59,702 nt of DNA from the IMG/VR virus record IMGVR_UViG_3300029309_000016, positions 1-59,702 of that record, one strand, 5' to 3'. Positions 1,620-27,956 of the stretch are shown one piece after another. Made by a program: the position numbers and the translations under genes. The stretch comes from a virus. Every line of letters starts with the position of its first letter. The stretch's first letter is position 1. Below the pieces are notes generated by a model, which was not told where the DNA came from, searched no databases, and was given only the letters and a program-made list of their open reading frames with translations.

Positions 1620-1623
1620 AGAT

Positions 1624-2006: not shown

Positions 2007-2007
2007 T

Positions 2008-2181: not shown

Positions 2182-2207
2182 TTGTGTAACTATATAATAT
2201 TTTCAAA

Positions 2208-2351: not shown

Positions 2352-2353
2352 CC

Positions 2354-2479: not shown

Positions 2480-2484
2480 TTATT

Positions 2485-2652: not shown

Positions 2653-2654
2653 TT

Positions 2655-2939: not shown

Positions 2940-2957
2940 ACACTTAAATAAATAATT

Positions 2958-3044: not shown

Positions 3045-3047
3045 ATT

Positions 3048-5984: not shown

Positions 5985-7601
5985 ATGGCAAAAAAAATGA
6001 CATACGCAGATATAGCAGAGAAGTTATCTAACGCATATAATAAATATGATAGTGCATTACAAACTGCCACAAATGATGCAGAAAAAAATGCAGCTACACT
6101 CATGTTAAAACGTGTGTCAGATAGACTCAATAATTTAATGCTTGATAATCAAGCACAGGCAAATGAATCAGATCAAAAAGAAACGGCTCCTGATTCACCA
6201 GACCAAAGCATTGCTCAAAGAGAAATGCGAATGATGGGTAAAGGAGGTAAACTTAAACCTGTACCAAAAGGTAAAAAAGGCAAAGGGTTATCTAAATTAC
6301 CTAAATCAGTGAGAAACAAAATGGGATTCATGGAAGATGGAGGCAACCTCAAACCTATACCGCCAGGCAACAAAGGATTACCTAAGTTACCTGAAGCAGT
6401 TAGAAATAACATGGGGTATATGAAAAAAGGAGGTTCAACGTTTCCAGATCTTACAGGAGATGGTAAAGTAACGTTTGCGGATATATTGAAAGGTAGGGGA
6501 GTTTTTCAATCCGGAGGACAGTTATATGATAATGTAACAGATGACTTACTAACAAAAGAATTGTTAGAAGAAGCTGGAATATTATCAGGACTAGGTGGTG
6601 AGTTTAATCCTAGAAATCCTGAACATGTAAAAAAACTACAAGAAGGATTACTAGGAGCTTACACAGGACCTGGAGCTGATACAATGTTATCAGGAACAGA
6701 GTTAGAGTTTATAGGACCTGATGGTCCACAATCTGTTAATCAAGCAGGAGTAGATGGTAAGTTTGGTATTGATACATTTACTGCTTTACAGCAATTTACA
6801 AAAAGAAAAGATAATCCATTTGCTAATTTAAAACCATTAGAGGTAGAACCACTAAAGGTAGCACCAGTTGAAGATGTTATACCTCAATTAATGAAACAAA
6901 CAACAGCAACTCCTTCAGAAACTGAAACTACAGGAGGTGATGAGTCTAGTAAAGAAACTACAGGATCTGGAAAAGCTGTAAATACTATAGTTGATAATCT
7001 ATTAGGTCCAGGAACAAAAGCATTAGAATACTTTGATAAACTTAACTTAATTAGAGGAATGAGACCTCCTGAAGATATGTTACTACAAAGTCCAGTGTTT
7101 TTAAATACTAACACTAGTATAGATCCACAGCTGTCAGATTTAAATGATCAAAGAATAATGAGAGAAAGAGCTCTAAAACAAAGCAGAACAAAAAGACAAA
7201 ACGTTGATGCTAACCTAGCTGCTTCTGAAGCACAAGCTAATAGAGCAAGAGCTAAATTATTCCAGCAAAAAAATCTAACGGATCAAAAAAATAGAAATAT
7301 GCAAACTATGTTAAACTCTAACATAGAAAAGTTAAATAACCAAACTTCGTTTGATAATGCTTTTGCTCAAACAGACTTCTTAAATAACAGAGACAGAGCA
7401 AGATCAAGATTATTTTCTGGTATAGTACAAGACGCACAAGATTTATTAACACAAAGAACCGGTAGAAGATCACAAGAGGCACAACTAGAAGCACTTACTC
7501 CTTACTTAAATATGTACGGAGTTATGGATAGAAATGCTCCTCAGTTTAGTGATGCACAACTAGCTAATTTAATGAGAAGGCTATTAGGACAAACCACATA
7601 A
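5985..7601 (+). CDS. Virion cargo protein with peptidoglycan-binding motif
   Basis: 538 residues. The N-terminus is helical. Between about 80 and 185 come four Gly-Gly modules, MGKGGKLKPVPKGKK, EDGGNLKPIPPG, MKKGGSTF and FQSGGQLYDN, and between the last two lies a calcium-type loop DLTGDGKVTFADILKGRG. Residues about 210-270 (VKKLQEGLLGAYTG, then GVDGKFGIDTFTALQQF) fit the PG_binding_1 pattern of peptidoglycan-binding domains. A long charged coiled coil rich in Gln, Asn and Arg follows (about 380-510). Its place between the peptidase and the RNA polymerase suggests an ejected internal protein that contacts the cell wall. The two GGxLKP modules look like an internal duplication. Confidence 0.6.
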   Translation: MAKKMTYADIAEKLSNAYNKYDSALQTATNDAEKNAATLMLKRVSDRLNNLMLDNQAQANESDQKETAPDSPDQSIAQREMRMMGKGGKLKPVPKGKKGKGLSKLPKSVRNKMGFMEDGGNLKPIPPGNKGLPKLPEAVRNNMGYMKKGGSTFPDLTGDGKVTFADILKGRGVFQSGGQLYDNVTDDLLTKELLEEAGILSGLGGEFNPRNPEHVKKLQEGLLGAYTGPGADTMLSGTELEFIGPDGPQSVNQAGVDGKFGIDTFTALQQFTKRKDNPFANLKPLEVEPLKVAPVEDVIPQLMKQTTATPSETETTGGDESSKETTGSGKAVNTIVDNLLGPGTKALEYFDKLNLIRGMRPPEDMLLQSPVFLNTNTSIDPQLSDLNDQRIMRERALKQSRTKRQNVDANLAASEAQANRARAKLFQQKNLTDQKNRNMQTMLNSNIEKLNNQTSFDNAFAQTDFLNNRDRARSRLFSGIVQDAQDLLTQRTGRRSQEAQLEALTPYLNMYGVMDRNAPQFSDAQLANLMRRLLGQTT

Positions 7602-7610
7602 AAATATAAT

Positions 7611-9575
7611 ATGAGTTATTATCCAGGATATTACGGACCAAGAGAATACTACAGAGGTAGAAGAAGAAGGAGAAGCCCTTTTGATGATATGAACTTAGCG
7701 TCATTAGGTAAACTATATACAGACGTTCCTGTTACAGCTGTACAAACAGCTATGGAGGGACTTAATAAAGAATACTTAAGAGTAGCAGATCAAAAAGATG
7801 CTTTATCAGAAGCACTAGCTGCAGCTCAAGTAATGGAAGGAGATAACCCAGAAAAACAAAATTTAATTAAAGGACTACAAGATCAAATAAATACTTTTGT
7901 AGAAGACACAGGGGGTGCATTTGAAAAAGGAGATAAGTTTGTTAGAGGATTAGCAAAAGATGTATCACAGAATCCTTGGCTATATCAAGCAATAGAAAAC
8001 AAAAAACTATTTGATGAAGATCAAAAAATGTTAGATGAGATGAGAGTTAAAGGACTTGCTCCTTTATATTTAGCTGATGAAAACTTTACTACAATGGGTG
8101 CAGATGGTGCGCCTCAAGGCTATCAATCTTATATTGGTTCTAGAGTAGACAGAAGACCAGTATTGGAATCTTTCTTTAATCAAATTAAAGCAGATAGAAG
8201 AGACTTAGTAGATGAGTTCATGAATATAACAACAACTCAAACAACAGAACCAAGAGTAAAAGAAGTTATAGGTGAAGCTTTTGACATACTTAAAGGAACT
8301 AAAGAGTATCAACAATCTTTAGAAAATGCTAAGGCAGAAGCTAACTTTAATGGTCAACCATTTGATCAAGCTGCTTTTGACAATCAATGGAAGAACGATC
8401 TTAGACAAGTAGGTGCAGAGTTTTCTTATACACAAATATCAGAAAATCCTAACAGAACATTGTTTAATGCTGCTTTTCAGCGACCAGGTGATACAGGTCC
8501 AACAGGATTTTCACAAAACACACTTCAACCACAAGGATCAAGTTACATGAGAGGAACCGATACTGATGCTATGTTTAATAATCCGTTAGGTCTTGGAGGT
8601 GATGATAGTTATAGATTCTTTACTGAGCAACGTGTTAAAAATCCTACTATGCAAAATCTAGACTCTAATGGTCAACGTATTATTACAGTTGGTAGAACTT
8701 TTAGCGGTCCTGTAATAGATATGACTGATGAAAGAGATAATCAAGGAGGATCAGAAGGTCAATTTAGACTTTCACCTAGTGGAGGTGCTTACAATGCTAC
8801 TCCTACTGGTGAGTTTGTTACTGTTCCTATAGTAGTAGGAGATAATAATGCATTTTATAAAGGACTAGAAGAAGAAATAAGAAATGCACTTATAGCTCAA
8901 GATGATACTTATAACTGGACAATGTCTACTCAAAAAGGGTTTGCAGGAGAAATGCCTTATGCTGGTGCTATTTCAGGTCTGGGCAGAGGAAGATATGGCG
9001 ACATTGAAGCAGATATAAAACCTTTACCTCTTACAGTACAAAAAACATTTGTAAATGAAGCAGGAGAAGAAAAGACAGCAAGTATTCCAATGTCTTATAT
9101 TGTTAAAAATGGTCAACCTTTAATAGTAGAGTCTGAGCCGTTTGCTATATTTGATACATTTGATAGTGCAGATCCTGCAGAAGCTAACAATAAAGGTAGA
9201 GTATTACAGTTACTTGACCCAACAGTAGCTGCTAACCAAAACCTCAAAACATCTTATAGAACATTATATCAAGATGGTGGAGGAGACGCTGCTAATCTAG
9301 GTAATATGGACTTTACAATTGGATTTTTACAAGATTTCGAAAAAGGACTAAGTCCTAATAATCCATTGTATCAACTTACAATAGAATCTCTTAATGCAGC
9401 AGTAGAAGTTAGAAACAAGTTTAACGAAGAAGGAGGAAGATTAGATGCTATAGACTATGCTGTTATGCGTGAAATTGATCAAAAGTTAATGGGCATAGTA
9501 TTAAAAGCTTTAAATCCAGATCCTACTATAGTAAGAGAGTTATCAAAAACTAGAAACAACTCTGGTAGATTATAA
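7611..9575 (+). CDS. Large virion cargo/structural protein
   Basis: 654 residues. The start is Tyr/Gly-rich, then an Arg block (YRGRRRRR). A helical region of about 170 residues follows (LGKLYTDVPVTAVQTAMEGL; FVEDTGGAFEKGDKFVRGLA). The rest is mixed alpha/beta with no catalytic motif that I can see. In crAss-like phages a protein of this size and style lies beside the virion RNA polymerase and is part of the ejected cargo; that is the basis of the call. The Gly-Gly modules of its neighbours are mostly absent. The RNA polymerase gene follows after 15 bases. Confidence 0.5.
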   Translation: MSYYPGYYGPREYYRGRRRRRSPFDDMNLASLGKLYTDVPVTAVQTAMEGLNKEYLRVADQKDALSEALAAAQVMEGDNPEKQNLIKGLQDQINTFVEDTGGAFEKGDKFVRGLAKDVSQNPWLYQAIENKKLFDEDQKMLDEMRVKGLAPLYLADENFTTMGADGAPQGYQSYIGSRVDRRPVLESFFNQIKADRRDLVDEFMNITTTQTTEPRVKEVIGEAFDILKGTKEYQQSLENAKAEANFNGQPFDQAAFDNQWKNDLRQVGAEFSYTQISENPNRTLFNAAFQRPGDTGPTGFSQNTLQPQGSSYMRGTDTDAMFNNPLGLGGDDSYRFFTEQRVKNPTMQNLDSNGQRIITVGRTFSGPVIDMTDERDNQGGSEGQFRLSPSGGAYNATPTGEFVTVPIVVGDNNAFYKGLEEEIRNALIAQDDTYNWTMSTQKGFAGEMPYAGAISGLGRGRYGDIEADIKPLPLTVQKTFVNEAGEEKTASIPMSYIVKNGQPLIVESEPFAIFDTFDSADPAEANNKGRVLQLLDPTVAANQNLKTSYRTLYQDGGGDAANLGNMDFTIGFLQDFEKGLSPNNPLYQLTIESLNAAVEVRNKFNEEGGRLDAIDYAVMREIDQKLMGIVLKALNPDPTIVRELSKTRNNSGRL

Positions 9576-9590
9576 TAAATAATTGTTTTT

Positions 9591-12500
9591 ATGTCAACTA
9601 AGAAAACACAAGGTAAAAAATTACAGAGTGGTGGACAGCTACTAGAGAAACTTCAAAACTTTACTCCGCCTACTGATAATAAAAATACTACTCCTGTAAC
9701 TGAAAGAGTTCCTCTTATAACCAGTGAGCTTATATCTAATTATGCTCCTAGAAAGAACGATCCTTTTTCTCGTTTTAGTTTAAATAAAATGAAGGACAAC
9801 CCTGAGTTTACAAGTCCTTATATGAATGAAAAAGTAGATACTGTAGGAGATTTAAGTGCAGCTAATTATGGATTTCCTACTCAGTTAGAAGAGGGAGACC
9901 CAGGATATACTCCTCCTTTAATTCCTATTTCACCGGATGAAATGATTACACCTGATGTATGGGCTCCAGAAACTATGATACTAAATAGACCTAATACTAC
10001 TTATCTTTCAGGAGGATCAGGTAGATCTGAATTTAATCCGGCTGCTACAATAGCAAAAAGAAAAGGGGTAGAAGCAGGTAGATCAGGTAGAGTTATTCTA
10101 GAAGATGGAACTAAAGTTGACTTTAGTGATCCAGAAAGTAAATATAGATTTGACAATCCTAACTGGCTTCAAAAAATATTTGGAGAAGATAATGATGGAA
10201 ATATGTTCAAACGTACTTATGATTATGAAGAGGACTTTCAAGTAAACCCTGACGCTCTAGAAACTTATGGTCAAGATTTCTCAAACCTAGTTCAAGAACA
10301 AAGAGAAAGTATACTAAAATTTCTGCCTTTTAAAGGAATGGACACTTCAGGGTATTATTATAAAGAAAAAGGATACTATCCAGTATATGATGAAGATGAA
10401 GAACAATGGTATCTACAAGAAACAAGCTTATCTGAAGACAAGTTTATGAAAATGAGAAGTGCATTACTTAGTCCTTATGGAGTAGGTCAAGTACAAAAAG
10501 GTACATTACATTCTTTTGTAGATGGATTTAGCGATGGTTTAGGTAGTACTTGGGAAAGTCTTGTAAACTTTGGAGAAATAGTTGGAGATGCTTTTGATGG
10601 TGTAGACTCAGATCTAGAACCTGACGGTTTTACTGATAGACTTGCGGCTTCTGCTAGAACTGCTTACAACTTTAACAAGTATGCAAAAACAGCAATGCAA
10701 CAAACAGACTCTATGTTTTCTAGTGGAGATGCTTTTGGAAACGGATTAGGCAGTGGTCTTGCTTCTTTGTTATCTTTTTGGGGGTTAGGTGGAGTCGGAG
10801 CAGCAGGAGCAAAAGGAGCTGTAAAACTAGTTACTAAAAAAATGCTTACTAAGTTTCCTAGAAGAGCAGTAAGTATGATTGGTCATATGTCGGGAGGTAT
10901 GCCGTTAAATGCTGGAGAAGTATACTCAATGGCTAAAATGGATGGACTAGATGATGATGATGCAGCAGGCTTAGCACTTACTGTAGGATTTATAAATACC
11001 TTAGTAGAGTATGGTGTAGGAACAAATGCGCTGGCTAATAGAGCATTTGGTACATATGGTACAAGAGGAATGACTAAAGCTATATTAGATTATGGTAAGA
11101 AAACAGGTATGAGGTTTAATAGTAAACAAACCTTAGATCAAGCTACTCCTTATATACTACAAAAAATTAATAAGTTTTTACAAAAAGGTGATGACTTTCT
11201 TAACTCTCCGTTTAGAGCGTTAGAAAACGTAGGAGTTAAAAGTGCAGGTAAATATGGTACTAACTTACTAACAAGAACAGCTAGAGCAACTGGATCTGGA
11301 CTTGAAGAAGGAAGCGAAGAATTTATACAAGGTTCTATTATAGATGGAGCTACAAAAACTTACAACAACTTAATAGCAGGAGAGGATGGTAAAAGACCCG
11401 GTATGGGAATGTTTAATACTTCTCCTTTTGATGCAAATAAATTACTAGAAGAAGCAGCTATTGGATTTATACTAGGAGGATCAACTAGATTTATTAGTAA
11501 TGCTAGAGGTGAGGCAGATCTTATGAGAATGATAGCAGAAGGTAATGGACAAGAACTACTAAACCAAGTAGATCATTTAGGAGGAATGAATTTATTAGGT
11601 AAGTATCAAACTAAAAAACTAAAGAAAAGAATAGGTGATTTAATTAATGTGTGGAATGCTAATGGTGCAGGCTATAGTCATTTATCTATAGAAGATCAAG
11701 GTCTTGTTGGACAGTTCTTATTATCTGAACAAGAAAATAATAAACAGATAGACTCTCTAAATAGAAGAATATCTAAAGTAAATGCTGATCCTGATCTTAG
11801 CAGCAAAGAAAAAAACAAAAAAACAAGACAACTTAAAATAGAATTAAATGCACGACAAGAACAGAAAAAGGTTTTAGAAAACTTTTTAGATATATATTCT
11901 GATCCAAAGAAAGTAGATGAAACACAGATAAATAAAATGCCTTCTGTTGTAAGAAACGCTATCTTTCATTTATCTAGAGAAAAAAGTTTACATCAAAGTA
12001 GAATAGAATACTTAAGAGACTTACTTGTAAATGATACACCTGCAAATAGAAGAAGAGCAAGAAACGTATTAAAGAAAATATTAGGAGACGCTGAACTTAA
12101 AAGAACTTTAGGTGCTCTTACTGCGGCTCAAAAACAACAAGTAGAAGATGAAATTAAAAAGTATGAAAAATACATAGAGCAAATTGATGAGCAGATGGAT
12201 GGATACTTTACAGACTCTAGTCAATGGGATGGAGTAGTAGAGAAAGTAGAAAATGAAATGAAATCACAAGAAGAAAAAATAGCAGAAGAAGAAAAACCAT
12301 TAACTACTAAAGCTAAAGATCAACCAAAGAAAAATGAAACTCCACAACAAAGAAGAAATAGAGAAGCTAAAGAAGAGGTAGAAAGAAAAATTAATAATCA
12401 AAATCAAGCTATATCAAATGTAATAGTTCCTACTAGTGAAGTTAAGATGGTAGAAGATAAAGAAGGAACCTTACATCAAGTAGCAGGCATAGAAAAAGAT

Positions 12501-15500
12501 GCTAATAATAAAATTGTATATGTTAGTCAGACTTTAGATGATAAAGGTAATCCTATAAAAATACTTCAAGATGACGTAGCATTAGTGGTTACTGACTTCG
12601 GAAGAGAAAAACACAGAGATAACTTTCTAAAAACATATTGGCTACACGCTGTTGGTTTAAATGATGAACAGCGAGATGAACTAGAACGTAAAATACTTCA
12701 AGATAAAGATCTAGTAAATAGAATACAAATACAATTTGTTTACAAAAAAAGAGAACTATCAGACTCTGCTATAAAAGAAGAGAACATGGATATAAACATG
12801 AATGGCTCTTACTTAAAAATAGTAGATACAGGTGATAAGTCTGTAATAGCAGTTATAAGAACACCCAATAGGTTTTATGATAAAGCTGGTAAACTTATAC
12901 CTGGAGACAAAATGACTAGACAGTTTTTTTCTGATAACTTTAGTAAAGATAGACCATTTACAAAACAACAATGGAAAGAGTTTGGTATGAACTATACTAA
13001 ACTAGTTCAACTAATAGAATACTTAGAAGGAGAGTATAAAGATGCTACTGAAGAAAATCCTATTGTTCTTGATGAGTCACAGTTTAATATTAGTTTTGAC
13101 GTTGGATTAGTTAGTAATGAAAGTAAGAAAAGATTATTAATTACAGATTTACTCGTAGGAGATCATACTTTTGATGGAGACTATAGAATATATGATAGAC
13201 AAGAACAAAAAGCTATTATAGGAAAAGAATTTACAAAAGATGAACTAACTAATCTACCATCTATTGACGGTAGGTATTTTGCATTAGTAAAAAGAGGCAA
13301 CGCTCCTAAATGGGTTAGAGTTATGCCTAGAGAACTAGCTAGTGCAGATATTACAGAAAGACTTAAACGTGCAAAGAATGCAATACAAAAAGCAAATAAA
13401 ATTAAAAAAGAGGGAAGTGAAGCTGTTGATTTAAAAGACTATATAGAGAGTATTAATAAAGATTTAGATTTATTTGTTGCTGCAGAAAAAGATATAGGCA
13501 TACATATAATAGCAGACTATAATAGAAAGACTGACAGCTACGAATTAAAGCTAGAAATAACTCAAAGAAAAAATGGAGAGTATGTTAAGTTATATAAAAG
13601 AGTACAAAATCCAGATGTAACATTACCTAATATTATATCAACTGTAAATAATCAAATGAAAAAATACGGACTATCTACTATAGGAGTAAATAGTTTTAAA
13701 CAAAGCATACCCTTACCAGGAGAAGGTGTAGTAGTTGATCCTAATTCTTTTGAAAGTACATTAGAAGTATCAAGTAGAAATTTTATAAATCCTACTATGA
13801 TAATTTCTCCTAAAAATGAATTCTTTGAAACTCCAGTAAAAGGAAAACCTATAAAAGCACAGAAAAAAACAAAAGTAAGAGAAGAAATAAAACTAGATGA
13901 TAATAAAAAGACATCAGCAGAAAACCTCTTAGACGAACTTAATGAAGAGGGCGGAGATCTTATGGCTTCATTACCAGAAGGTAGACTAAATAACGAAGTA
14001 CGTAAAGATATTGTAAAACAAATAGTTGCTAAATATATATATGGTGCAAATGACTATAGTATAACTACAGCTATTATGGATTCTGCTAGATTAGAAACAC
14101 CTCTAGAAGATTCATTAATAGAAAAAATACTAAATGCATATATAGCCGGATTAACTCCTCAGAGTTTTATGGATGGATCTAAAGAGTATACTACTGAAGA
14201 AGTTACTAGTATAAAAAATAACTTTAGACAGGCATTCTTAACAAAACTAAAACTAGAAACAAATAAAGAAATAAGAGATGATATTATAGATGAGGTAAAA
14301 AGACAGGTTGTTTTTTTACAAGATGATTTAGATATATTAGATCAAATACAAACAGACTTTAATGTAGATTACACACAGCTCGGAGGAATTAAGTCTTTAT
14401 CTTCTAGAATAAAACAATTTATATCATTACTAACCTCTGAAGCTAAAGATAACTTTGGTAGAACTAAGTGGCAGTCTAAACAATACGGTACAGAAACTAT
14501 ACGTAAAACTTTAAACGGACATAATCTTGCATCTCACTTAATAAAAGCTCTAGCAAATGATGGCAGTTTAGTTAACTTACAAAGAAGACTTGAGGCTCTT
14601 GCTAAATATGATGAACAAGCAGAATTAGTATTATCTGCATTAAATGATCCTGCACACAAGCATGTAAAAACAGCATTTGAAAACAACTTTAATAAAGAAC
14701 CAATGAAGTTCTTAAAGCTTGTCGGTGATAGTAAAGGTCAGTTTATATTTATAGATCCACTAGAAAACGATGGTTCTAATCAAGTGTTTAGAATGTGGAA
14801 GAGTAAAAATACAAAAGACAGAAAAGCTGTAAATAATATTGTAAATCTAATAGAAAGTATAGAATCTGATCCTACTGCTGATCAAATAAATAAATTAATA
14901 AAAGAGTTTGATAATCTAGGATGGCAATTAAGTAAAGGAGCAGCTGCGTTTATACTTGGAGACGAACAAGTAGTAAGTGCATTTACAGAACTGCAAACCA
15001 ATGAGCTAATAAGTAATCCTAAAAAGTTCTTTAAAGGGTATGTAGCTGACTTTAACAAGAAAAATAAAACAAAAACCAATATGTTTAAACTAGCACAGAT
15101 AGCTGCTATGTTTGACCCTACTGTATACGAACCTAATTATATAGATGCTGATGGTAATGCTCACTATAAATACACACATAGAAACTATTACATAGATGCA
15201 ACTAACTCAATAAAAAAAGGAGGAAAAAGTTTTATAAAGGCAGGAGATTATAATTTACTGATTAAAAAAGGAGCCTTAAACACACTAGACTTACAATATG
15301 TAGGGGACGTTGTCTTAAATAAAAAAGGTAAAGTAAATAAAAACCTAGTAGAAAGAGAAAGAATGTTATTACATTTTGCACTGTTCCAAAAAAGAGACAT
15401 ACCAGGAACAGCTTACTATATACCTCATGTAATTGCAGACAAGAAAACAATGTTTGGTATAAGAATGCCAGTAATAGATACATACTATAATGAAGGTGTA

Positions 15501-18500
15501 ACTCAAGAAGCAATAGATGATGTATACAACTCTATATTTGTTAGAGAGGTTAATAGAAATGCATCTGGAGAACTTTTAATAAGTAAAAAAAATGAAGTTA
15601 AATATTTTGGTGTACTAAGTCAACTAAACGATGTTGAGTATGAAGGTCAACTTCTTCCTGACTTCTTAACAAAGAAAAAAAATAACTTAGATGGTCTAGC
15701 AGCTGATATAAAACAAAAGGTTATAAAACCTATGTTAGAACAGGTTGTTGCTGATACTAATGAAAGAATAGATAATTTAAATGTTAGAAAGCAACTTACA
15801 GATCTTAGACTTGACAGTCCTCTTCAAGGTACTATTAATAATAAAATAGGAAGATTTGCTATTAATCATTTTGTAATGTCTGTTTCTTGGACTCAATTAA
15901 TGCATGGTGATGCAAACTTTGTAGACGACAGAGATATGAATAAAAGATTAGCAGGGTTTAATGCAGCAGGTGCAACAATGGGTACATCAGACTATAACTA
16001 TTTATTTATAGAGGATGAAATAATAGACACTGAGTTTGGATCTCCAAGTAATACTAGCGATGCTCAAGTATATATGACTGAAGAGCAATATGCAATGCGT
16101 CAATTAGAAGCAGGTGAATATAGAAATGATATAGAGTTTTCAGCTTTAACTAAATTAGCGGCTAGATTAGATGATCCTTCTATAGAATTAACTCCTGAAG
16201 AACTAAACTCTTTAGATTTAAACAGCACAAAAACAGTATCAGAAAATAGTGAAGACTACTTTAAAAAGTCTGATAACATAATTACAAAAGAAGAAGCAGA
16301 AGCAAATCCAGACGTAGGTCGTATATACAATCTTCTTAATTCTAATAGGATACTATACTTAGTTCCTCTTAGTGCTCAAAAAAGAAAACCTGGACGTGCA
16401 CTTCCTGCAAACTTCTTTAAAGCAGATAACAAATTAGATACTAGTCTTATAAGAACAGGTAACTTAAGATTTGAAAGAAATCAAGTTATTAATAGATCTA
16501 AATCTAGAGTAGGAAAAGTGAATGATTCTGTTATGGCAAAACAAGTTCATGACCTCATTGGTTCTGTAATTACAAAAAATAGATCGTTGGTTGATACTAT
16601 AAATCAAGCTAACGCAGATCAAAAAGCAGCATATACAGCAGTTGTAAATGCTTTCTTAGATCCACAAAACAGTGAAGCTTTACGTGCACTGTTATATATG
16701 AATGCACAAAACAATAGAGGACCACAAATATTAGGATTCTTAGATCCTTCTATTTCCAAACCGTTTAACCTAAGCCTAGGTAATATAAAAACCTATGTTG
16801 AAAATGCTCTTGTAAATGTGTATAATGATGGACCATTGAAGTCTAAAGTTGTAGGGGGAGTTGCAACTTTAATTTCAGGTACACATTACATAAACCCACA
16901 GACAGGTCAACCATTACGTATACACAGAAACGTAAATGGTAAGATAGAATATGCAGAAGTATTAGCATCTAGAAAATTCTTTGGTCTAAGTAAATATGAT
17001 ACCATAGAAGATGTTCCAGATGAAAGGATGTTGCAGGCTTTTGGTACTAGAATACCCGCACAAACATATCATTCTATGATACCTATTAAAGTTGTAGGGT
17101 TTTTACCAAATTCAAAAGGAGACTCTATAGTAACACCTAGAGAGCTTCCAGGACTTGCAGGATCTGATTATGACTTAGATAAACTTTATCTACATAGGTA
17201 TGCAAGCCATGATGGAAAAGTAATAGAGGATCCTAATGACTTAATAGAGTACAAAAGATTCTGGAGTGAAACTCCTTTTGTAAAGCTAATAATGAGTACG
17301 TACAAAATAGACTCATCAGAAGCTATGAAAAGACTAAACTTAATAGATGAAGATGGTAGTGCAGCTGTATCTCATCCTAGAGTAGAACAAAACAAAATGC
17401 TTGATAATATGTTACAAGTATTTAATGACCCAGAAGTACAAGAGGTTATGTTTGTTCCTGCTTCAGAAGGAGAAGCTGATGCATTTTTAGAAAAGTATCC
17501 TAACTTAGATAAACTAAAACCTATACATACAGTTGTTGGAGTTTTAGATTATCATACACAAAATAAATTAGGTGCAACAAACGTAGGTATAGCTGCAAAT
17601 TTAAATACTCTTGTATCTTTCATGACTCAGTTTGCACCTGATACGTCTACTGTAGGAATAGATATAAATGATGAATACTTTGGTTCTTTTGGTAGAATAG
17701 TAGATCCTACAGGTAAAAATAAATTTGACTCTATATCTACATTAATAACTTGGTTTGTAGATAATGTTAAGTTAGGTGTTGCTCCTAGATTAAACTTAGA
17801 CCCAGATATGTCACAAACTTTTGGACATCTAGTGGGCATGGCAGTATCTCAAATGGAAGCTTTAATGCTTGTTAACCAGCCTATACTTAGATTATATAAT
17901 GAGCTAAAAGAAAATGATCCTAAATTAAGTATAGCAAAATCTAGACAAGATGCAGCAAAAAGAAGAGGAGAAATAAGAGCAATGTTAGTAGAAAAAATAC
18001 GAGCTGTATCTAATAACAAAGGAATGCCTTTTACTACTGAAAATCTAGACAAAGGACTTACATATGATACAGATATAAAAACTCTTTTAAATCTAGGTTT
18101 ACCTAATCAAGTATTAAAACTAGAACTTAATGAAGAAGATAATGCCTTCTTAGGCACACAGCTAAAAGCACTAGAATTTGTAGATGAGGTTGTAAGAAAA
18201 TATGAAACAGAGTATGGTGACATGATACAGTTTATGACTACAACTAGAGGACTAAAAGGAGTAGATGCCTTAAGAAACATGAAAATATCAGATCCTTTAC
18301 TTGTTCATCCTGTTTTCCAAGCTAATGCAACGTTAATAAAACAAATGACACAAAACATTGGATCTAAGTTTTTAACTAATTCAGAGGTTGCAGATGCTTT
18401 TATATCAGTATACGGTAAGACTACTCCTAAAGAAATGCAAGATGTTTTAGCTAAAATACAACAACTAAAAGCAGATCCTAAGTATAATTCTAACGGTGCA

Positions 18501-21500
18501 CTACATAATTTATTACGTATAGAAAAAGATGAAAATGGTAAACTTACATTGCTTGCAGACTCCTTTACTGTAATGTCACCTGAAATAGAAGGAGAAATGA
18601 TGGGTATGTTTGAAGACTTATTTGAAGATAACCCAGGATTATCAGATCAGTTATTAAAATATTTATTTGGTACTTCTTTATTAGAGTTTAAAGCAAATTC
18701 TTTTGTAAAATACTTACCTCCAAATATATTTAGAAAATGGTCAGATGCTTTAGATTCTTATGAAAGAACTCCAGAAAAAAGAAAGGTAGCAGACAATGAG
18801 TATAAAAAACTTAAAGTAAAAGCAAAGGCATATGCCGGAGAAGTAGAAGAAGGATTAGAAACTACGTTACCAACAGACAGAGAACAGTTTAAAAATGGTA
18901 CATATACTATTGATAAGATAGCATCAGAACTATTAGTTGATGATGGCTTTAAAAATTTATTAAATAAACTAACTTCACAGGGAGTTGAAGTAGAGTATAC
19001 AAGAGGAGGTGCTAGTTATTATTCTAACAATAAAATATATCTAGGTAAGTTAGATCAGAATACTTTCTTAGAAGAAGCGGTGCACGCAGGACTAGATATA
19101 CTACCTAAAGATCAAAAAAATAAATTAAGAAAAGATGTATTGTCTTGGTATAAACAACTTATAAAAGATCATGCAGGTAAAAACGAAATACAAACAATAC
19201 AAAGAATATTTAATAGGTATAATAACTTCTATAAAAACGAAGAGAAAGCAGCAGAAGAAATTGTAACACATTTACTATACAATGAATATGGTATAGCTCA
19301 AGATCTTAATAACTTAGTATCTCCAGATGCACAAGAAGGAGGCATTCTAAAAAGAATGTGGAATAAGTTTATACAAATATTATCTAAGTATCTAGGTATA
19401 GAAGTACAAGAAGGGTCTGAGCTAGAAAAACTATCTTCTTTAATGCAGCCTGTAAACAGATTACTACAAGACGGTGAAGTAGAATACAGCAATGAAAGAT
19501 CTTCAGATCAGCTGTTTAGTATGCCCCATGGTAAGTTATATGATAATCTTACAATTAAAAATGTGACACCAGATACTATGGCGAAAATTAATGTAGAAGG
19601 AGAAGGTACAGTTATAATGTTTGATGGATTAAGAATGCCTGTTGAACAAACCATTGTCAATTTAGCTAAAGGAGGAAAGTATGGTGCTACTGTATATGTT
19701 AAGAAAAAAATTCCTATAAGAAACTTTGCAGTATTAAACAAAGTTACAAAAGAAAAATATGCAAAAGATTTAGGGTTTGATAATTTTGCTGACTTAAAAA
19801 AGAAAGCAAAGGGTAGATTATTAGAATTTGTAAATGGTAGAAGAGAGGGCATGATAATGCAAGTAGAACAATTCCTACCTAAAGAATTAGAAGATTTAAT
19901 ACAAATGAATTCTGTAGATCCTTATAGTAATGTTGTTAATAATATACTTATAAAGTTATATAAACAATTAAAAGATTTACAACAAGTAAAAAACATAGAG
20001 TTTGCAACTAATAGATCAAACAGACTTAAAAAAATTATAAATCAAATAGAACAAACAAGAGACTTGTTTACATCTGTTGCTGACTTTCATGATGATGTTA
20101 TTACACAGTCTAAATTATTTGATGAGTTTTTAGAAACTATACCTGAAGAACTTAAAAAAGGGAACAAAGGATTACAAACTGTTATAAATGTTTTGTTTAG
20201 AATGCAAACGTTATACCAGGATATGAGTTTCTTAGAAGAACTACCTGATGTTTTTGTAGAAAAAATTAAAGATCCAGAATACAAAGCACCAAATGATGTA
20301 TTAAAGAAATTACAGGAAGCTGCACAGACTTTAGACTTAATGAAACAAAAGACTAGAAAACAGTTTATTCCAATAGTAGCAGAAAAACTATTTCCATTTA
20401 TTGAAAGGTCAGGTCCTGCAACAAAAGCATACGTTGACCAAAGACTTGATCAAGTACAAAAACAAATAGAACGAGTTAGAAAAGCTGATATTTCTGATTC
20501 TAAGAAAAATAAAAAAATAACTCAGCTACAAAAAGAGTTTGCTAGACTTACAAGATTAGCAGAACAAGCTCCACAAAGTGTAGAACAATACAAAAACTTC
20601 TTTATGTATACTACGCATGATGATTCATTTATAAATTATCTTCTTACATCGCCAGCTACTTCTGGAGATCCTGGTGTTGCAGCATTAGTAAACTATACAA
20701 ATGCGTTATATAATGATATAAGAATGCAAGCTTTAGATATAGCAAATCAATTGGAAAGTGCTGAGGGATTAGTAATAGAAGGATTAGAAGAAGCCGGTAC
20801 TCCTGCTAAGAAAACAAAAGGAGTTTATAATCCTAAAGATTTATATGATGCACTAATACAAAAAATTGATGATAACGGTAGAGAAGTTTATCAACTAGTA
20901 ACTCAGTATGATTCAGAGAGATTTCTACGAGAGTTAAAAGCAGAAGAAGAAAAGAAAATAAAAACTCAAGAAGACTTCTTAAGATTTAAAGAACAGTTAG
21001 AAAAGAGAAGAAAGAAAACACTACAAACTTATAAAAACAAACTAGCTGCTTTTAATAGACTTGATGATGAATTAAAAACTGCGATAATACAACAACAAAT
21101 ATCAGAGTTAGAAGCTTCTATATCTAGAGTTGAAAATCAAATTCAAAAAGGAGCAACTGAAAGAGAAGTTGTTAGGTTTGCTACAAGACTCTGGAGAGCT
21201 CAAAACACTGTTCCTAAAGATGTAAAAGAAATACAAGCTATTATTAAAAGGTTACCTCCTGCAGAAGTAAGAGCTTGGGCTTCTAATCAAATGAATTATG
21301 CTGCAATGTATTATCATAATATAATTAGTGCAGAAGAGTATACTTTGTTACAAGATATAGATAAAGCTTCAGGACTAAAACCAACACAAGACAGGCAATA
21401 TTTTGGTGTCCAGGTTACAATACCTAAGTTTATAAATCCAAAGTGGAGAAAGTTGTATAAGAGAGTAACAAGGAAAGGACCGGACGGTCAGAGTATTCAG

Positions 21501-23408
21501 GTAGAAGTTCCAAAAAATAAATTAGGACAAGCTCATGAAATATTTACTAAAGTCTATAAAGATTCTTTAGCTACAACAGGAGTTCAGTTAAATGTTGATA
21601 TGCAACTTCCTTCTATAAGAAGAGGAACGTTAGATAGAATACTAGACTATGGAGTTTGGAGTGAGATAAAAGAACAAGCAAGTAGATTATTTACTATAGA
21701 CGAAGATGATGCTTTTGTATATGGTAGTGCTGTTATAGAAGGACAATCTAGCAGAAGGGCTCCTGTGTATTTTACACAAGATATAGATGCAAATGATGTT
21801 AGTTTAGATATAAAGAGCTCTATTATGATTTTTGCAAACTCTGCAGCTAGAACAGAAGCTAACAATGAAGTATTAAAAACTGCATATCTACTAGAAGATA
21901 TATACAAAAAAGAAAGAGTAGTTGATCCAGAACAATCTTCTATAATAGGCTTACAAAAACAAGGAAGAAAAATATTAAATTATAGAGAAGGGCAATCTAA
22001 TTCTGAAAAAAGAATTGAGAAGTTTATAGAAATGGTTTTATTAGGTCAAACTAAAAAAAGTGATCAAGTAGAAATATTTGGTAAAACATTACAATTTGAT
22101 AAAGTAGTAGATGGTCTTTTAGGATATACTGCTATTACAACACTAGGACTCGACTTCTTAAAAGGTACAAGAAACGCACTTACTGCATTTTGGCAGCAAG
22201 CAATAGAGTCTGGTGCTAACAGAGCTAATAAAGATAGACTTAGTACTAAAGATTTTATTGCAGGACATCGTATAATGAGACAAGGATGGTATGAGTTGTA
22301 TAAAGACAAGTATGAAAGACTAGGAAATAGATCTAAACTAGGACAGCTGTTAATAAAGTTTGATGCTATACAAGGAAACTTTGAAGACTTTGTTGGTAAA
22401 CAATTAGTAGGTAGACAAGCACTAAGAGCATTTATTTCAACAGATAGTTTCTTACTAAATTATCATGTAGGTGAGGTACAAATGCAAGGAGCAGCGGCAA
22501 TAGGACTTATGCTTAAGAAAAAAATTAAGTTAGGAAATAATGAGTATAACCTATACAATGCTTTCTTTGTTAATAAAGAAAATAAATTAGAATATGTAGA
22601 GGGAACACCAGAACAAAAGAAAGAAGCTGATAAAATAGTTAGAGATACTATTAATGAAATTAGAGAAATGAATAGAAGACTTAATGGTAACTATAGAAGT
22701 ATGGATAGACCTCCTGCAGAACAAAGCAGTATAGGTAGAGCTGCTATGTTATTTAGAAAGTTTTTAGTTCCTATTGCTATGAATAGATGGAGAGCTGATT
22801 TTGTTAACCATGAATCAGGTAGACCAGATGGTGGATTTTATAGAAGATTCTTTAGAGATTTTATAAACAATTTAAAAACAAGTGTAGAGAAGAATGCATT
22901 TAGTAAGATTATGGATGCAGGTAAAAGAGCAACAGCTACTAAAGAAGATAGAGAATTAGCATTTAAAATGCTTCATGAAGTAGGAGTTCTTAGTATATTA
23001 GGATCAATAGGTCTTATGTTAACTGCAGCTTTAGATGACGAGGATGAGGAGTTTATAAATTATCCTGCTTACTTAGCATTATATCTAATAAAAACTACAT
23101 ACGCTGAAATACAAGCATTTTCTCCTTTCTTAGGTCCTTTACCTATAAACTTTACAGGTATGTTTAGAGAAGGACTAAGAGTTGTAAGATCTCCTTCTGC
23201 TATGACTACTGGTATAGATAGATTTATTAAATTCAACGCACAGTTGTTTGACCCGTTTGAAGAGTATCAAAGAGACGCAGGTCAATACAAAAAAGGAGAT
23301 AATAAACTTAAGGCAAGATTCCTAGAAGTATTAGGTTATTCTTCTGGACTGCAGTTTAATCCAGACGCAGCACTAGATAACTTCCTAGCCGCTAATAAAA
23401 GATTATAG
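9591..23408 (+). CDS. Giant virion-associated RNA polymerase-like protein, 4605 aa
   Basis: The catalytic signature of two-barrel RNA polymerases lies at about 2486-2534: GTRIPAQTYHSM, then PIKVVGFLPNSKGDSIVTP, then AGSDYDLDKLYLHR. D2526, D2528 and D2530 form DxDxD, the metal-binding triad in crAss-like phage and YonO-type polymerases. The arrangement of R-x-P, then GD, then the aspartates matches the beta-prime barrel. Other parts: a Gly-Gly motif at the N-terminus (KLQSGGQLLEK), a hydrophobic Gly/Ala stretch (about 385-413), EEAVH (3161-3165, HExxH-like but lacking the first His), an ASCH-like stretch (about 3315-3430), coiled coils (about 3600-3660), and one C-terminal membrane segment (about 4464-4482). 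The length, twice that of phi14:2 gp66, suggests a polyprotein or a fusion with ejection proteins. It would be packaged and transcribe early genes after injection. Confidence 0.85.
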   Translation: MSTKKTQGKKLQSGGQLLEKLQNFTPPTDNKNTTPVTERVPLITSELISNYAPRKNDPFSRFSLNKMKDNPEFTSPYMNEKVDTVGDLSAANYGFPTQLEEGDPGYTPPLIPISPDEMITPDVWAPETMILNRPNTTYLSGGSGRSEFNPAATIAKRKGVEAGRSGRVILEDGTKVDFSDPESKYRFDNPNWLQKIFGEDNDGNMFKRTYDYEEDFQVNPDALETYGQDFSNLVQEQRESILKFLPFKGMDTSGYYYKEKGYYPVYDEDEEQWYLQETSLSEDKFMKMRSALLSPYGVGQVQKGTLHSFVDGFSDGLGSTWESLVNFGEIVGDAFDGVDSDLEPDGFTDRLAASARTAYNFNKYAKTAMQQTDSMFSSGDAFGNGLGSGLASLLSFWGLGGVGAAGAKGAVKLVTKKMLTKFPRRAVSMIGHMSGGMPLNAGEVYSMAKMDGLDDDDAAGLALTVGFINTLVEYGVGTNALANRAFGTYGTRGMTKAILDYGKKTGMRFNSKQTLDQATPYILQKINKFLQKGDDFLNSPFRALENVGVKSAGKYGTNLLTRTARATGSGLEEGSEEFIQGSIIDGATKTYNNLIAGEDGKRPGMGMFNTSPFDANKLLEEAAIGFILGGSTRFISNARGEADLMRMIAEGNGQELLNQVDHLGGMNLLGKYQTKKLKKRIGDLINVWNANGAGYSHLSIEDQGLVGQFLLSEQENNKQIDSLNRRISKVNADPDLSSKEKNKKTRQLKIELNARQEQKKVLENFLDIYSDPKKVDETQINKMPSVVRNAIFHLSREKSLHQSRIEYLRDLLVNDTPANRRRARNVLKKILGDAELKRTLGALTAAQKQQVEDEIKKYEKYIEQIDEQMDGYFTDSSQWDGVVEKVENEMKSQEEKIAEEEKPLTTKAKDQPKKNETPQQRRNREAKEEVERKINNQNQAISNVIVPTSEVKMVEDKEGTLHQVAGIEKDANNKIVYVSQTLDDKGNPIKILQDDVALVVTDFGREKHRDNFLKTYWLHAVGLNDEQRDELERKILQDKDLVNRIQIQFVYKKRELSDSAIKEENMDINMNGSYLKIVDTGDKSVIAVIRTPNRFYDKAGKLIPGDKMTRQFFSDNFSKDRPFTKQQWKEFGMNYTKLVQLIEYLEGEYKDATEENPIVLDESQFNISFDVGLVSNESKKRLLITDLLVGDHTFDGDYRIYDRQEQKAIIGKEFTKDELTNLPSIDGRYFALVKRGNAPKWVRVMPRELASADITERLKRAKNAIQKANKIKKEGSEAVDLKDYIESINKDLDLFVAAEKDIGIHIIADYNRKTDSYELKLEITQRKNGEYVKLYKRVQNPDVTLPNIISTVNNQMKKYGLSTIGVNSFKQSIPLPGEGVVVDPNSFESTLEVSSRNFINPTMIISPKNEFFETPVKGKPIKAQKKTKVREEIKLDDNKKTSAENLLDELNEEGGDLMASLPEGRLNNEVRKDIVKQIVAKYIYGANDYSITTAIMDSARLETPLEDSLIEKILNAYIAGLTPQSFMDGSKEYTTEEVTSIKNNFRQAFLTKLKLETNKEIRDDIIDEVKRQVVFLQDDLDILDQIQTDFNVDYTQLGGIKSLSSRIKQFISLLTSEAKDNFGRTKWQSKQYGTETIRKTLNGHNLASHLIKALANDGSLVNLQRRLEALAKYDEQAELVLSALNDPAHKHVKTAFENNFNKEPMKFLKLVGDSKGQFIFIDPLENDGSNQVFRMWKSKNTKDRKAVNNIVNLIESIESDPTADQINKLIKEFDNLGWQLSKGAAAFILGDEQVVSAFTELQTNELISNPKKFFKGYVADFNKKNKTKTNMFKLAQIAAMFDPTVYEPNYIDADGNAHYKYTHRNYYIDATNSIKKGGKSFIKAGDYNLLIKKGALNTLDLQYVGDVVLNKKGKVNKNLVERERMLLHFALFQKRDIPGTAYYIPHVIADKKTMFGIRMPVIDTYYNEGVTQEAIDDVYNSIFVREVNRNASGELLISKKNEVKYFGVLSQLNDVEYEGQLLPDFLTKKKNNLDGLAADIKQKVIKPMLEQVVADTNERIDNLNVRKQLTDLRLDSPLQGTINNKIGRFAINHFVMSVSWTQLMHGDANFVDDRDMNKRLAGFNAAGATMGTSDYNYLFIEDEIIDTEFGSPSNTSDAQVYMTEEQYAMRQLEAGEYRNDIEFSALTKLAARLDDPSIELTPEELNSLDLNSTKTVSENSEDYFKKSDNIITKEEAEANPDVGRIYNLLNSNRILYLVPLSAQKRKPGRALPANFFKADNKLDTSLIRTGNLRFERNQVINRSKSRVGKVNDSVMAKQVHDLIGSVITKNRSLVDTINQANADQKAAYTAVVNAFLDPQNSEALRALLYMNAQNNRGPQILGFLDPSISKPFNLSLGNIKTYVENALVNVYNDGPLKSKVVGGVATLISGTHYINPQTGQPLRIHRNVNGKIEYAEVLASRKFFGLSKYDTIEDVPDERMLQAFGTRIPAQTYHSMIPIKVVGFLPNSKGDSIVTPRELPGLAGSDYDLDKLYLHRYASHDGKVIEDPNDLIEYKRFWSETPFVKLIMSTYKIDSSEAMKRLNLIDEDGSAAVSHPRVEQNKMLDNMLQVFNDPEVQEVMFVPASEGEADAFLEKYPNLDKLKPIHTVVGVLDYHTQNKLGATNVGIAANLNTLVSFMTQFAPDTSTVGIDINDEYFGSFGRIVDPTGKNKFDSISTLITWFVDNVKLGVAPRLNLDPDMSQTFGHLVGMAVSQMEALMLVNQPILRLYNELKENDPKLSIAKSRQDAAKRRGEIRAMLVEKIRAVSNNKGMPFTTENLDKGLTYDTDIKTLLNLGLPNQVLKLELNEEDNAFLGTQLKALEFVDEVVRKYETEYGDMIQFMTTTRGLKGVDALRNMKISDPLLVHPVFQANATLIKQMTQNIGSKFLTNSEVADAFISVYGKTTPKEMQDVLAKIQQLKADPKYNSNGALHNLLRIEKDENGKLTLLADSFTVMSPEIEGEMMGMFEDLFEDNPGLSDQLLKYLFGTSLLEFKANSFVKYLPPNIFRKWSDALDSYERTPEKRKVADNEYKKLKVKAKAYAGEVEEGLETTLPTDREQFKNGTYTIDKIASELLVDDGFKNLLNKLTSQGVEVEYTRGGASYYSNNKIYLGKLDQNTFLEEAVHAGLDILPKDQKNKLRKDVLSWYKQLIKDHAGKNEIQTIQRIFNRYNNFYKNEEKAAEEIVTHLLYNEYGIAQDLNNLVSPDAQEGGILKRMWNKFIQILSKYLGIEVQEGSELEKLSSLMQPVNRLLQDGEVEYSNERSSDQLFSMPHGKLYDNLTIKNVTPDTMAKINVEGEGTVIMFDGLRMPVEQTIVNLAKGGKYGATVYVKKKIPIRNFAVLNKVTKEKYAKDLGFDNFADLKKKAKGRLLEFVNGRREGMIMQVEQFLPKELEDLIQMNSVDPYSNVVNNILIKLYKQLKDLQQVKNIEFATNRSNRLKKIINQIEQTRDLFTSVADFHDDVITQSKLFDEFLETIPEELKKGNKGLQTVINVLFRMQTLYQDMSFLEELPDVFVEKIKDPEYKAPNDVLKKLQEAAQTLDLMKQKTRKQFIPIVAEKLFPFIERSGPATKAYVDQRLDQVQKQIERVRKADISDSKKNKKITQLQKEFARLTRLAEQAPQSVEQYKNFFMYTTHDDSFINYLLTSPATSGDPGVAALVNYTNALYNDIRMQALDIANQLESAEGLVIEGLEEAGTPAKKTKGVYNPKDLYDALIQKIDDNGREVYQLVTQYDSERFLRELKAEEEKKIKTQEDFLRFKEQLEKRRKKTLQTYKNKLAAFNRLDDELKTAIIQQQISELEASISRVENQIQKGATEREVVRFATRLWRAQNTVPKDVKEIQAIIKRLPPAEVRAWASNQMNYAAMYYHNIISAEEYTLLQDIDKASGLKPTQDRQYFGVQVTIPKFINPKWRKLYKRVTRKGPDGQSIQVEVPKNKLGQAHEIFTKVYKDSLATTGVQLNVDMQLPSIRRGTLDRILDYGVWSEIKEQASRLFTIDEDDAFVYGSAVIEGQSSRRAPVYFTQDIDANDVSLDIKSSIMIFANSAARTEANNEVLKTAYLLEDIYKKERVVDPEQSSIIGLQKQGRKILNYREGQSNSEKRIEKFIEMVLLGQTKKSDQVEIFGKTLQFDKVVDGLLGYTAITTLGLDFLKGTRNALTAFWQQAIESGANRANKDRLSTKDFIAGHRIMRQGWYELYKDKYERLGNRSKLGQLLIKFDAIQGNFEDFVGKQLVGRQALRAFISTDSFLLNYHVGEVQMQGAAAIGLMLKKKIKLGNNEYNLYNAFFVNKENKLEYVEGTPEQKKEADKIVRDTINEIREMNRRLNGNYRSMDRPPAEQSSIGRAAMLFRKFLVPIAMNRWRADFVNHESGRPDGGFYRRFFRDFINNLKTSVEKNAFSKIMDAGKRATATKEDRELAFKMLHEVGVLSILGSIGLMLTAALDDEDEEFINYPAYLALYLIKTTYAEIQAFSPFLGPLPINFTGMFREGLRVVRSPSAMTTGIDRFIKFNAQLFDPFEEYQRDAGQYKKGDNKLKARFLEVLGYSSGLQFNPDAALDNFLAANKRL

Positions 23409-23489: not shown

Positions 23490-24581
23490 CTACCAAAGAA
23501 TATTCTTATTAAACTTGTCTAAGAATTCATTGCACTTTGTAAAAGGTTTTGACCCAAAAAATCCAGAGTTACCACCGCTGTATGCTTCTGCAGCTGGATG
23601 AGGTGCTTTTATCACATGTATATACTCTTGATTTACATCTTCTGGTATACACTTTTGTGCTTCCTTACCCCATAGTATTAGAACTAAAGGTTCTTTTCTT
23701 TGAATTTTAAAGTCAATTAGTATTCGTAGAACAAGATCTACAAAGCCCTGCCATTGTTTTTGGTGCGAGAGAGGCTTACCTTGCTCAACAGTCAAAGATT
23801 TATTTAATAATAATATACCTTGACTTGCCCATCTTGTTAATACAGGACTGTGTGCGGACTTAAATGCAAAGTTCTCTGCATATATGTCATCCTGTACTTC
23901 TTTCAAGATGTTCTTAAGAGATGGTGGTATTTTAGTTTGACCTTCTCGTATAGAGAAAGCTAAACCATGAGCACTACCATCATGATAAGGATCTTGTCCT
24001 ATGATTACTACATTAGTATCTAATAAATCACAATACTTAAAAGCATTAAATGTTTCGCTAGCTGAGGGATAGACAACAGTTTCTTTACGTCTCTGTTTTA
24101 ACCACATGCCTAGCTGTAGCATTTCTGGTTTATTAAATACATGTTTTATTTCAGACCACCATTCGTAACCTAATCTGTCACAAAGTATCTGGTCTTGTTT
24201 TTCATTAAATTTTATACTCCAATACTTTATTGGTATATATAACTTTTCTGTATAACTAGCATTTTTATAAATCATTCTACCTGATCTAACTTTTGCATCT
24301 TGTGTGTCTATAGTGTACACAGCTCTTTCCGTAGTGTATTCAATACGTTGTGCAAAATCTAAAATTCTGTTATGTATACTCCAAGCTTTTGTTTTTCTAT
24401 AAATATCAGATTCTTTTTCACGTTTTTTATATGTAAACGTTCCGTCTGATTGTGGTTCTAAAAACCCTACCATACGTGATCTGTTTTCATTTGCTTGTAC
24501 AATGTGCACCTGGTATGGTGCTTCTTTATCTATAATAAGTTCATTACCAAACTTATCATTAATTTTCATATTCTGTTCCAT
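23490..24581 (-). CDS. ung: Uracil-DNA glycosylase, family 1, with N-terminal extension
   Basis: 363 residues; the family is usually about 225. The catalytic domain (about 138-363) aligns by eye with bacterial Ung: VVIIGQDPYHDG (D197 in the water-activating motif), then AHGLAFSI, then LLLNKSLTV, LILWGKEAQ, and PHPAAEA with H328, ending in SGFFGSKPF. The usual HPSP is HPAA, so the Ser is lost. The first 137 residues are an unrecognised mixed beta domain. The enzyme removes uracil from DNA; crAss-like phages commonly carry one. It is the last gene of the early block and overlaps the gene upstream by 23 bases. Confidence 0.93.
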   Translation of the reverse strand: MEQNMKINDKFGNELIIDKEAPYQVHIVQANENRSRMVGFLEPQSDGTFTYKKREKESDIYRKTKAWSIHNRILDFAQRIEYTTERAVYTIDTQDAKVRSGRMIYKNASYTEKLYIPIKYWSIKFNEKQDQILCDRLGYEWWSEIKHVFNKPEMLQLGMWLKQRRKETVVYPSASETFNAFKYCDLLDTNVVIIGQDPYHDGSAHGLAFSIREGQTKIPPSLKNILKEVQDDIYAENFAFKSAHSPVLTRWASQGILLLNKSLTVEQGKPLSHQKQWQGFVDLVLRILIDFKIQRKEPLVLILWGKEAQKCIPEDVNQEYIHVIKAPHPAAEAYSGGNSGFFGSKPFTKCNEFLDKFNKNILW

Positions 24582-26813: not shown

Positions 26814-27944
26814 TTAAGCTACTGATATAAGTCGTTCTTTTATGATACCAACTTTCTCACCGGCTCTTTCTTTCTTAAACTCTTCGAGTTCTTTCTCTAG
26901 AGCTTCTGTCTCCCATGTTTTGTAGTCATGCTCAAAGTATGGTGTAGTTATAGACATATCATTGTCTAAATCTACAATACCATAAGCATAGTACTCACAA
27001 CATCTCATCTTCATATAAGAATAATCAGATGGTACTGCAACTACATTCATAGGATTTACAAGACATGCAAGGTAAACGTTACCTCCACTTCCGCCAAATC
27101 CTTTGACGTATCCTGGTGCACCAACATGTAGTCCACTAGAACAAGTATTCATAGGATTGCTATCACACTTACCTCTATCCATAGTAACAGGAGAGCCAAG
27201 TCTGATTTGTGTACTGCCTTGATGCCAATCAGTAAACTCTGGTGCTTCTACCGTTTCATCTGTAAGATTATTTATAGAAGTAAACATCTCTTCTAGATTA
27301 CCAGCAACATGATCTGGTGCAATAAAGTTACCAGAACTATCTGTTATCAGATCAGTCTCTACAATAGAAAAGTCACCATTTTTATCTACAACTGTATACT
27401 TTGTAGGATCACCACCAGAAGCTTTTAATTGTATATACTCTTTTGGTACCCACATATTTACTGCTTTGTATGTTTTCTTGGTCTTCTTTACAGACTTGTA
27501 AGCTATAAAATAACCAGAGTCTGTAATAGGAAACTCATACTGATCCATAAAACTATACAGATCTCTCTTTACATGATCTGCAGGATTTAACATAGTCAAC
27601 TTCCAAAAGTTAACAAGAGGAGTTAGAGGAATATCGTTCTCTATAAACTCTCTCATTTTATTTAGAAGTTTAGACGGTAGTGGTTCACTATAACCTTTAA
27701 GAAACCAGTTACCCATACTATCTCTTACAAGACTATCTTGACCATATATCGCAGATGTAGGATCAAATTCTTGTATGAGTTCTTCTACAAGTAAATTAGT
27801 TGGATTCAATGCTACAGTCTTTATTCTTTCGTATAATGACTGAGCTTTAGTCTTATCGGATTCGCTCTTGTAGTAGCTTATACCGTTGACCAACGCAGTA
27901 ACATCTTTGTCACTGCGTATTGCAAATATTTGATTTTTACTCAT
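26814..27944 (-). CDS. rIIB: rIIB-like protein
   Basis: 376 residues from MSKNQIFAIRS. This start sits one base after the rIIA stop and is preferred to an upstream ATG at 27977 that would overlap rIIA. The middle (PLVNFWKLTMLNP, then SGYFIAYKSVKK) and the C-terminal part (CSSGLHVGAPGYVKGFGGSG, then VNPMNVVAVPSDYSYMKMR, then CEYYAYGI) match the conserved pattern of T4 rIIB relatives. rIIB works with rIIA at the membrane and is linked to exclusion by resident prophages. Its biochemical role is not settled. Confidence 0.85.
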   Translation of the reverse strand: MSKNQIFAIRSDKDVTALVNGISYYKSESDKTKAQSLYERIKTVALNPTNLLVEELIQEFDPTSAIYGQDSLVRDSMGNWFLKGYSEPLPSKLLNKMREFIENDIPLTPLVNFWKLTMLNPADHVKRDLYSFMDQYEFPITDSGYFIAYKSVKKTKKTYKAVNMWVPKEYIQLKASGGDPTKYTVVDKNGDFSIVETDLITDSSGNFIAPDHVAGNLEEMFTSINNLTDETVEAPEFTDWHQGSTQIRLGSPVTMDRGKCDSNPMNTCSSGLHVGAPGYVKGFGGSGGNVYLACLVNPMNVVAVPSDYSYMKMRCCEYYAYGIVDLDNDMSITTPYFEHDYKTWETEALEKELEEFKKERAGEKVGIIKERLISVA

Positions 27945-27956
27945 TTTACTTAAATT
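27944..27956 (-). repeat. Third copy of the AATTTAAGTAAAA start-site repeat
   Basis: Minus-strand AATTTAAGTAAAA at the rIIA stop/rIIB start matches 13 of the 14 bases of the tandem repeat in front of rIIA (30254-30281). It contains the rIIA stop TAA and its last base begins the rIIB ATG. It may serve as a translation-enhancing A-rich leader in a host that does not use Shine-Dalgarno pairing. Confidence 0.6.

Follow-up and report, generated by a model that had tools for sequence, protein, structure and literature searches.

A 4605-residue fused two-barrel RNA polymerase, probably packaged in the virion, in a crAss-like phage genome

The stretch of DNA analysed here (the window, 59,702 nucleotides of a 67,075-base virus record) contains a giant open reading frame that starts with ATG and runs for 4605 residues without interruption. 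The features within this ORF and the genes that set it in context are as follows.

3479-5983, + strand: probable cargo protein, 834 aa, with a glycine-rich hydrophobic stretch like that of crAss001 gp45 (PHROGs, hhalign)
5985-7601, + strand: probable cargo protein, 538 aa (hhalign to p-crAssphage gp47, E 4e-6)
7611-9575, + strand: probable cargo protein, 654 aa (by position; hhalign to an ORF of contig L089, E 1e-3)
9591-23408, + strand: ORF of the fused, probable virion RNA polymerase, 4605 aa
9591-13700, + strand: N-terminal extension, residues 1 to about 1370, probable gp47/gp67-type cargo/ejection region (weak hhalign matches)
14319-18731, + strand: gp66-like catalytic RNA polymerase (RNAP) part, residues 1577-3047 (collinear hhalign map)
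15978-16490, + strand: first barrel (DPBB-B) region, approximately residues 2130-2300, with K2214, K2225 and K2264 (67-sequence alignment A2; AlphaFold2)
16848-17225, + strand: second barrel (DPBB-A) region, approximately residues 2420-2545, with R2487, P2489 and the catalytic loop (alignment, AlphaFold2, Foldseek)
17166-17180, + strand: DYDLD metal-binding triad D2526/D2528/D2530
18891-19352, + strand: degenerate zincin-like domain, residues 3101-3254 (alignment A3 of relatives)
21522-23363, + strand: RNAP-associated part like phi14:2 gp65 and crAss001 gp49, residues 3978-4591 (phmmer, hhalign, hmmsearch)
22977-23033, + strand: hydrophobic, membrane-like segment, residues 4463-4481 (hydropathy)
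45814-47772, + strand: terminase (PHROGs, E 2e-141)
47785-50037, + strand: portal (PHROGs, E 2e-129)
51277-52713, + strand: major capsid protein (PHROGs, E 2e-101)

 and major capsid proteins all belong to matches with head-and-packaging families of PHROGs. The large terminase subunit is closest, among named phages, to those of the Flavobacterium phages Fpv3, Fpv4 and Fpv20 (39.6%), and the major capsid protein is 33-35% identical to those of Crassvirales; judging from these named relatives, the phage would be of environmental, perhaps marine, origin. The three ORFs immediately upstream of the giant ORF probably resemble the cargo proteins found ahead of the RNAP block. For the 834-aa protein this is suggested by weak PHROG matches to an internal virion protein and a tail lysin, together with an hhalign match to gp45 (E 2e-7 over 51 columns); by eye it also has a Cys/His stretch like that of an NlpC/P60-type hydrolase, for which Pfam gave no support. 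Elsewhere in the window, a homologue of T4 rIIA (27946-30249, − strand; PHROG E 2.5e-71) adjoins a homologue of rIIB (26814-27977, − strand; E 3e-36), and a 363-aa protein (23490-24581, − strand) has, by eye, the GQDPYH motif of uracil-DNA glycosylases in its C-terminal part, preceded by an extra N-terminal part. The latter protein matches PHROG 12143 (E 3e-53), a family without known function, and a uracil-DNA glycosylase is annotated in Fpv20. An open-ended ORF of at least 2430 aa with repeated segments resembling FYDSxxTxYxxxPxS (L091:2661-12074, positions 57660-67073 of the record and mostly past the window) is probably a giant tail fibre, and in the 698-aa ORF ahead of it, just beyond the window, a short run of N appears as XXXX in the translation.

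A reading made beforehand from the sequence of the window, hereafter the sequence-only reading, had proposed that the giant protein contains the active site of a two-barrel RNAP, on the strength of a DYDLD triad that follows R-x-P and GD motifs in the order of the beta-prime barrel. The positions bear this out, with RIP at residue 2487 and GD at 2510, both ahead of DYDLD at 2526-2530, which is the sole DxDxD in the protein. The triad alone is weak evidence for RNAP identity, as a DxDxD occurs in 77% of shuffled versions of the 4605-aa sequence, whereas the ordered and spaced string RxP...GD...GxDxDxD occurs in none of 2000. The string aligns with phi14:2 gp66 at D1361, with crAss001 gp50 at D1483 and with p-crAssphage gp44 at D1433, and it can also be aligned in Suoliviridae, Fpv20 and environmental relatives.

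Homology extends well beyond the motifs. In tblastn, residues 1500-3200 matched 138 phage records, mostly of crAss-like phages, the best being a "putative RNA polymerase" of crAss001 (E 2e-10), with phi14:2 gp66 at 3e-8. A search of viral contigs with the single sequence gave no match, while a search with the core alignment found relatives in at least 534. Conservation was assessed in alignment A2, which comprises 67 sequences over window residues 1766-2926 at a mean column identity of 13%; despite this divergence the invariant positions include K2214, K2225, K2264, R2487, P2489, G2524, S2525, D2526, D2528, D2530 and K2531. A profile of the 67 relatives found one match in the PDB, 6VR4_A, which is gp66 (E 3.7e-185). 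The window segment alone found no PDB chain in phmmer, and the structural link to 6VR4 goes through the family profile, the tblastn matches and the AlphaFold2 model.

The AlphaFold2 model of residues 1766-2926 (pLDDT 79, pTM 0.79) has a pLDDT of about 87-97 across most of the first barrel region. With this model, Foldseek placed 6VR4 at the top (E 8e-27), followed by the two-barrel RNAP QDE-1 (about 1e-5), and at E<=0.001 it returned two-barrel RNAPs only; against a viral library, the named matches were mostly crAss-like phage proteins. The structure prediction that had been proposed as a check on the barrel fold around D2526-D2530 therefore supports it at the level of the fold. A polymerase of the N4 (Schitoviridae) type, which has a T7-like single-subunit fold, was considered and rejected on the same Foldseek result. 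The hhalign map is likewise collinear, with blocks 1577-1738, 1830-2286, 2210-2896 and 2944-3047 (best E 1e-8, 4e-21, 6e-77 and 6e-7, respectively) matching successive parts of gp66 (206-1972) and crAss001 gp50 (285-2177). Pfam and PHROGs searches with the full 4605-aa protein returned nothing useful, and the cellular beta-prime model PF04997 had no match on the contig.

Homology, conservation across 67 sequences and the AlphaFold2 model together establish that the product of the giant ORF is a two-barrel RNAP of the same family as phi14:2 gp66: it shares with that family the DxDxD and barrel lysines, two double-psi barrels in the model, and the crAss-like gene context. One might still suppose that the fold is kept merely as a tape-measure or ejection scaffold and that the protein is catalytically dead, since the chain is very long and mostly non-catalytic and its gene sits in the cargo block. 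The invariance of the catalytic aspartates and the three conserved lysines argues against this, as does the finding that the catalytic stretch 2401-2600 is the block most conserved between the window and its two nearest relatives, L100 and L101 (59-60%), and we regard a dead scaffold as very improbable.

The protein is, as the sequence-only reading had noted, about twice as long as phi14:2 gp66 (2180 aa). This length cannot be taken as exceptional, because fused RNAPs of 4070-4620 aa occur in named crAss-like phages: p-crAssphage gp44 has 4070 aa, Fpv20 gp33 has 4419 aa, and further proteins with the DxDxD core in named phages have 4245, 4417, 4422, 4272, 4461 and 4620 aa. Relatives in IMG/VR reach 5677 aa, a review puts the upper limit for fused crAss-like RNAP proteins at ~6,000 aa, and the multidomain transcription block has already been described (PMC7886860). 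A length of 4605 aa is thus ordinary, and giant RNAP fusions are both known and typical of crAss-like phages.

The extra length is a fusion with adjacent virion proteins, which model phages encode separately, as the gp66-like part (about 1577-3047) and the gp65/gp49-like part (about 3978-4591) share one chain. The latter aligns with residues 755-1408 of gp65 (hhalign E 3e-106) and with crAss001 gp49 (E 2e-121), and is recovered by phmmer (E 7e-19) and hmmsearch as well. The membrane segment noticed beforehand falls within this part, and a hydrophobic segment is similarly placed in crAss001 gp49, phi14:2 gp65, Fpv20 gp34 and the more distant relative L174. An ASCH-like part that had also been suggested finds no counterpart, as PF04266 had no match on the contig at E<=10 in a search that did find its positive controls. 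The first ~1,370 residues are probably a cargo/ejection region of the gp47/gp67 type. Directly, this region had no hhalign match to gp47 or gp67; the suggestion comes from residues 568-638 (GSGLEEGSEEFIQ...), a short stretch with weak matches to about ten profiles of the N-termini of other fused crAss-like proteins (E 3e-7 to 2e-4); several of these profiles in turn match crAss001 gp47 strongly.

As the contig is metagenomic and carries the run of N just past the window, an assembly error or a sequencing frameshift could in principle have joined separate genes. This is strongly disfavoured because L100 and L101, two independent contigs with ~46% identity, have the same fusion, and L174 goes further, combining a gp47-type N-terminus, the RNAP and a gp49-type part within one ORF of 5677 aa; we consider an artefact hardly credible.

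Between the polymerase and the gp65/gp49-like part lies the zincin-like domain. The possible metallopeptidase remnant of the sequence-only reading is indeed present, in the form of EEAVH at residue 3161 (19071-19085), where 29 relatives have HExxH at the aligned place with a common downstream Glu. The window protein, L100 and L101 have EExxH, so that the Glu of the catalytic position, the second His and the downstream Glu (3223, the position of the third ligand) are retained and the first His is lost; in alignment A3, E133, H136 and E194 are invariant. The HExxH and downstream Glu ligand that define a zincin metallopeptidase are therefore incomplete in the 4605-aa protein. Across the HExxH, the A3 profile matches two podophage ejection or internal virion proteins of known structure, namely 9sfn_G (E 3e-16) and PhiM1 gp48, 8vb2_A (E 6.5e-8), a similarity that appears through the relatives' profile and for which the window clade alone gave no match. 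With an E of at most 0.1 (best 1e-4), 13 of the 32 sequences in A3 also match the SprT-like family of Pfam. A model of the region (pLDDT 65) had no meaningful Foldseek match in the PDB, and the zincin assignment therefore comes from sequence comparison. In the giant ORFs of L145 and L176, the HExxH stretch is followed, by eye, by a P-loop (GRGGTGKTT and GKAGTGKTT), and one A3 member matches AAA_30 (E 3e-21); some fused virion RNAPs (vRNAPs) may contain a helicase-like domain.

The state of this domain bears directly on the proposal that the giant protein is a self-processing polyprotein, in which its own metallopeptidase would cut the chain into gp67-, gp66- and gp65-like pieces acting as the subunits do in phi14:2. 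The idea has some appeal, in that phi14:2 and crAss001 encode these pieces individually and that the zincin-like domain is near the gp66/gp65 junction. It is opposed by the EExxH site of the window protein and both nearest relatives, with HExxH retained in relatives elsewhere, and by the lack of recognisable cleavage sites; searches of the literature turned up no account of such cleavage in fused crAss-like RNAPs. The vRNAP of coliphage N4 (about 3,500 residues), a giant, ejected virion enzyme whose RNAP domain is followed by a zincin-like (HExxH) domain, is moreover described as a single-chain multidomain enzyme (PMC12633501). We therefore judge self-processing to be improbable. Of the earlier proposal that such a polyprotein both enters the cell and transcribes early genes, the self-processing part found no positive evidence, while the coupling of entry to transcription seems plausible and had been published before (PMC10770324).

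Comparison with known systems places the protein more precisely. Phi14:2 gp66 (PDB 6VR4), taken with gp65 and gp67, has the same two-barrel RNAP in a single chain, the same DxDxD and RxP/GD order, collinear domains, a gp65-like partner and a context of cargo genes, at about 16% identity in the structural alignment; it differs in that three separate ORFs encode what is one chain here, and in that the HExxH of gp65 is intact. In p-crAssphage (Carjivirus communis), gp44 carries the annotation "RNAP catalytic subunit fused to unknown RNAP subunit" and has a C-terminal match to the same gp49-like module, but the zincin is annotated in a separate protein, gp45, whereas the chain described here also includes the N-terminal extension. 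Fpv20, in the nearest named group by terminase, has a giant gp33 with an N-terminal extension and both RNAP and zincin motifs; its chain stops after the zincin region and is followed by gp34 (1596 aa), and its zincin motif, HEVIH, is intact. The N4 vRNAP is comparable in how it works, but its fold belongs to another family. Thermus phage P23-45 gp96 likewise joins a two-barrel RNAP to a giant virion protein, and it has been suggested that entry and transcription are coupled in this way (PMC10770324), but there the fusion is to a tape measure and the C-terminal clamp region is absent; gp96 did not appear among the PDB profile or Foldseek matches of the RNAP part.

We conclude, with a probability of about 0.92, that the giant protein is a crAss-like virion-packaged RNAP consisting of an N-terminal cargo/ejection region, a gp66-type two-barrel RNAP, a degenerate zincin-like domain and a gp65/gp49-type part with a hydrophobic segment, which would be packed, ejected and used to transcribe early genes. 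Its homologues are virion components in phi14:2 (the record notes MS/MS), where the vRNAP transcribes early genes (PMC10136315), and in crAss001 the capsid contains the RNAP proteins, whose ejection, in a partly unfolded state, is thought to precede that of the DNA (PMC10172136). By analogy with these two phages, the 4605-aa chain would most likely be packed inside the capsid, travel partly unfolded through the tail with other cargo proteins before the DNA, and refold before transcribing early phage genes. Fusion as a means of coupling translocation to transcription has itself been proposed already (PMC10770324).

Apart from its zincin-like domain and ORF borders, this gene is an unremarkable hallmark of the order, and its presence here indicates that the giant vRNAP of gut phages is also kept by an environmental crAss-like phage. 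The ORF borders within the RNAP block vary by lineage: phi14:2 and crAss001 have separate genes, p-crAssphage and Fpv20 a partial fusion, and the phage described here a nearly complete one. To us the most interesting detail is that a domain resembling those of ejection proteins has been retained without its first zinc ligand, and it parallels the HExxH domain that follows the unrelated RNAP of N4. It is a possible, if doubtful, reading that giant vRNAPs repeatedly use this zincin-like domain, which they have in common with podophage ejection proteins, as a module linking ejection with transcription, and that in the window clade it has become a non-peptidase by the change of His to Glu, within one chain of ejection region, polymerase and associated part. 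A zincin that is conserved yet degenerate offers a lead on the role of these enigmatic domains, as a structural or ejection role would outlast the loss of peptidase activity.
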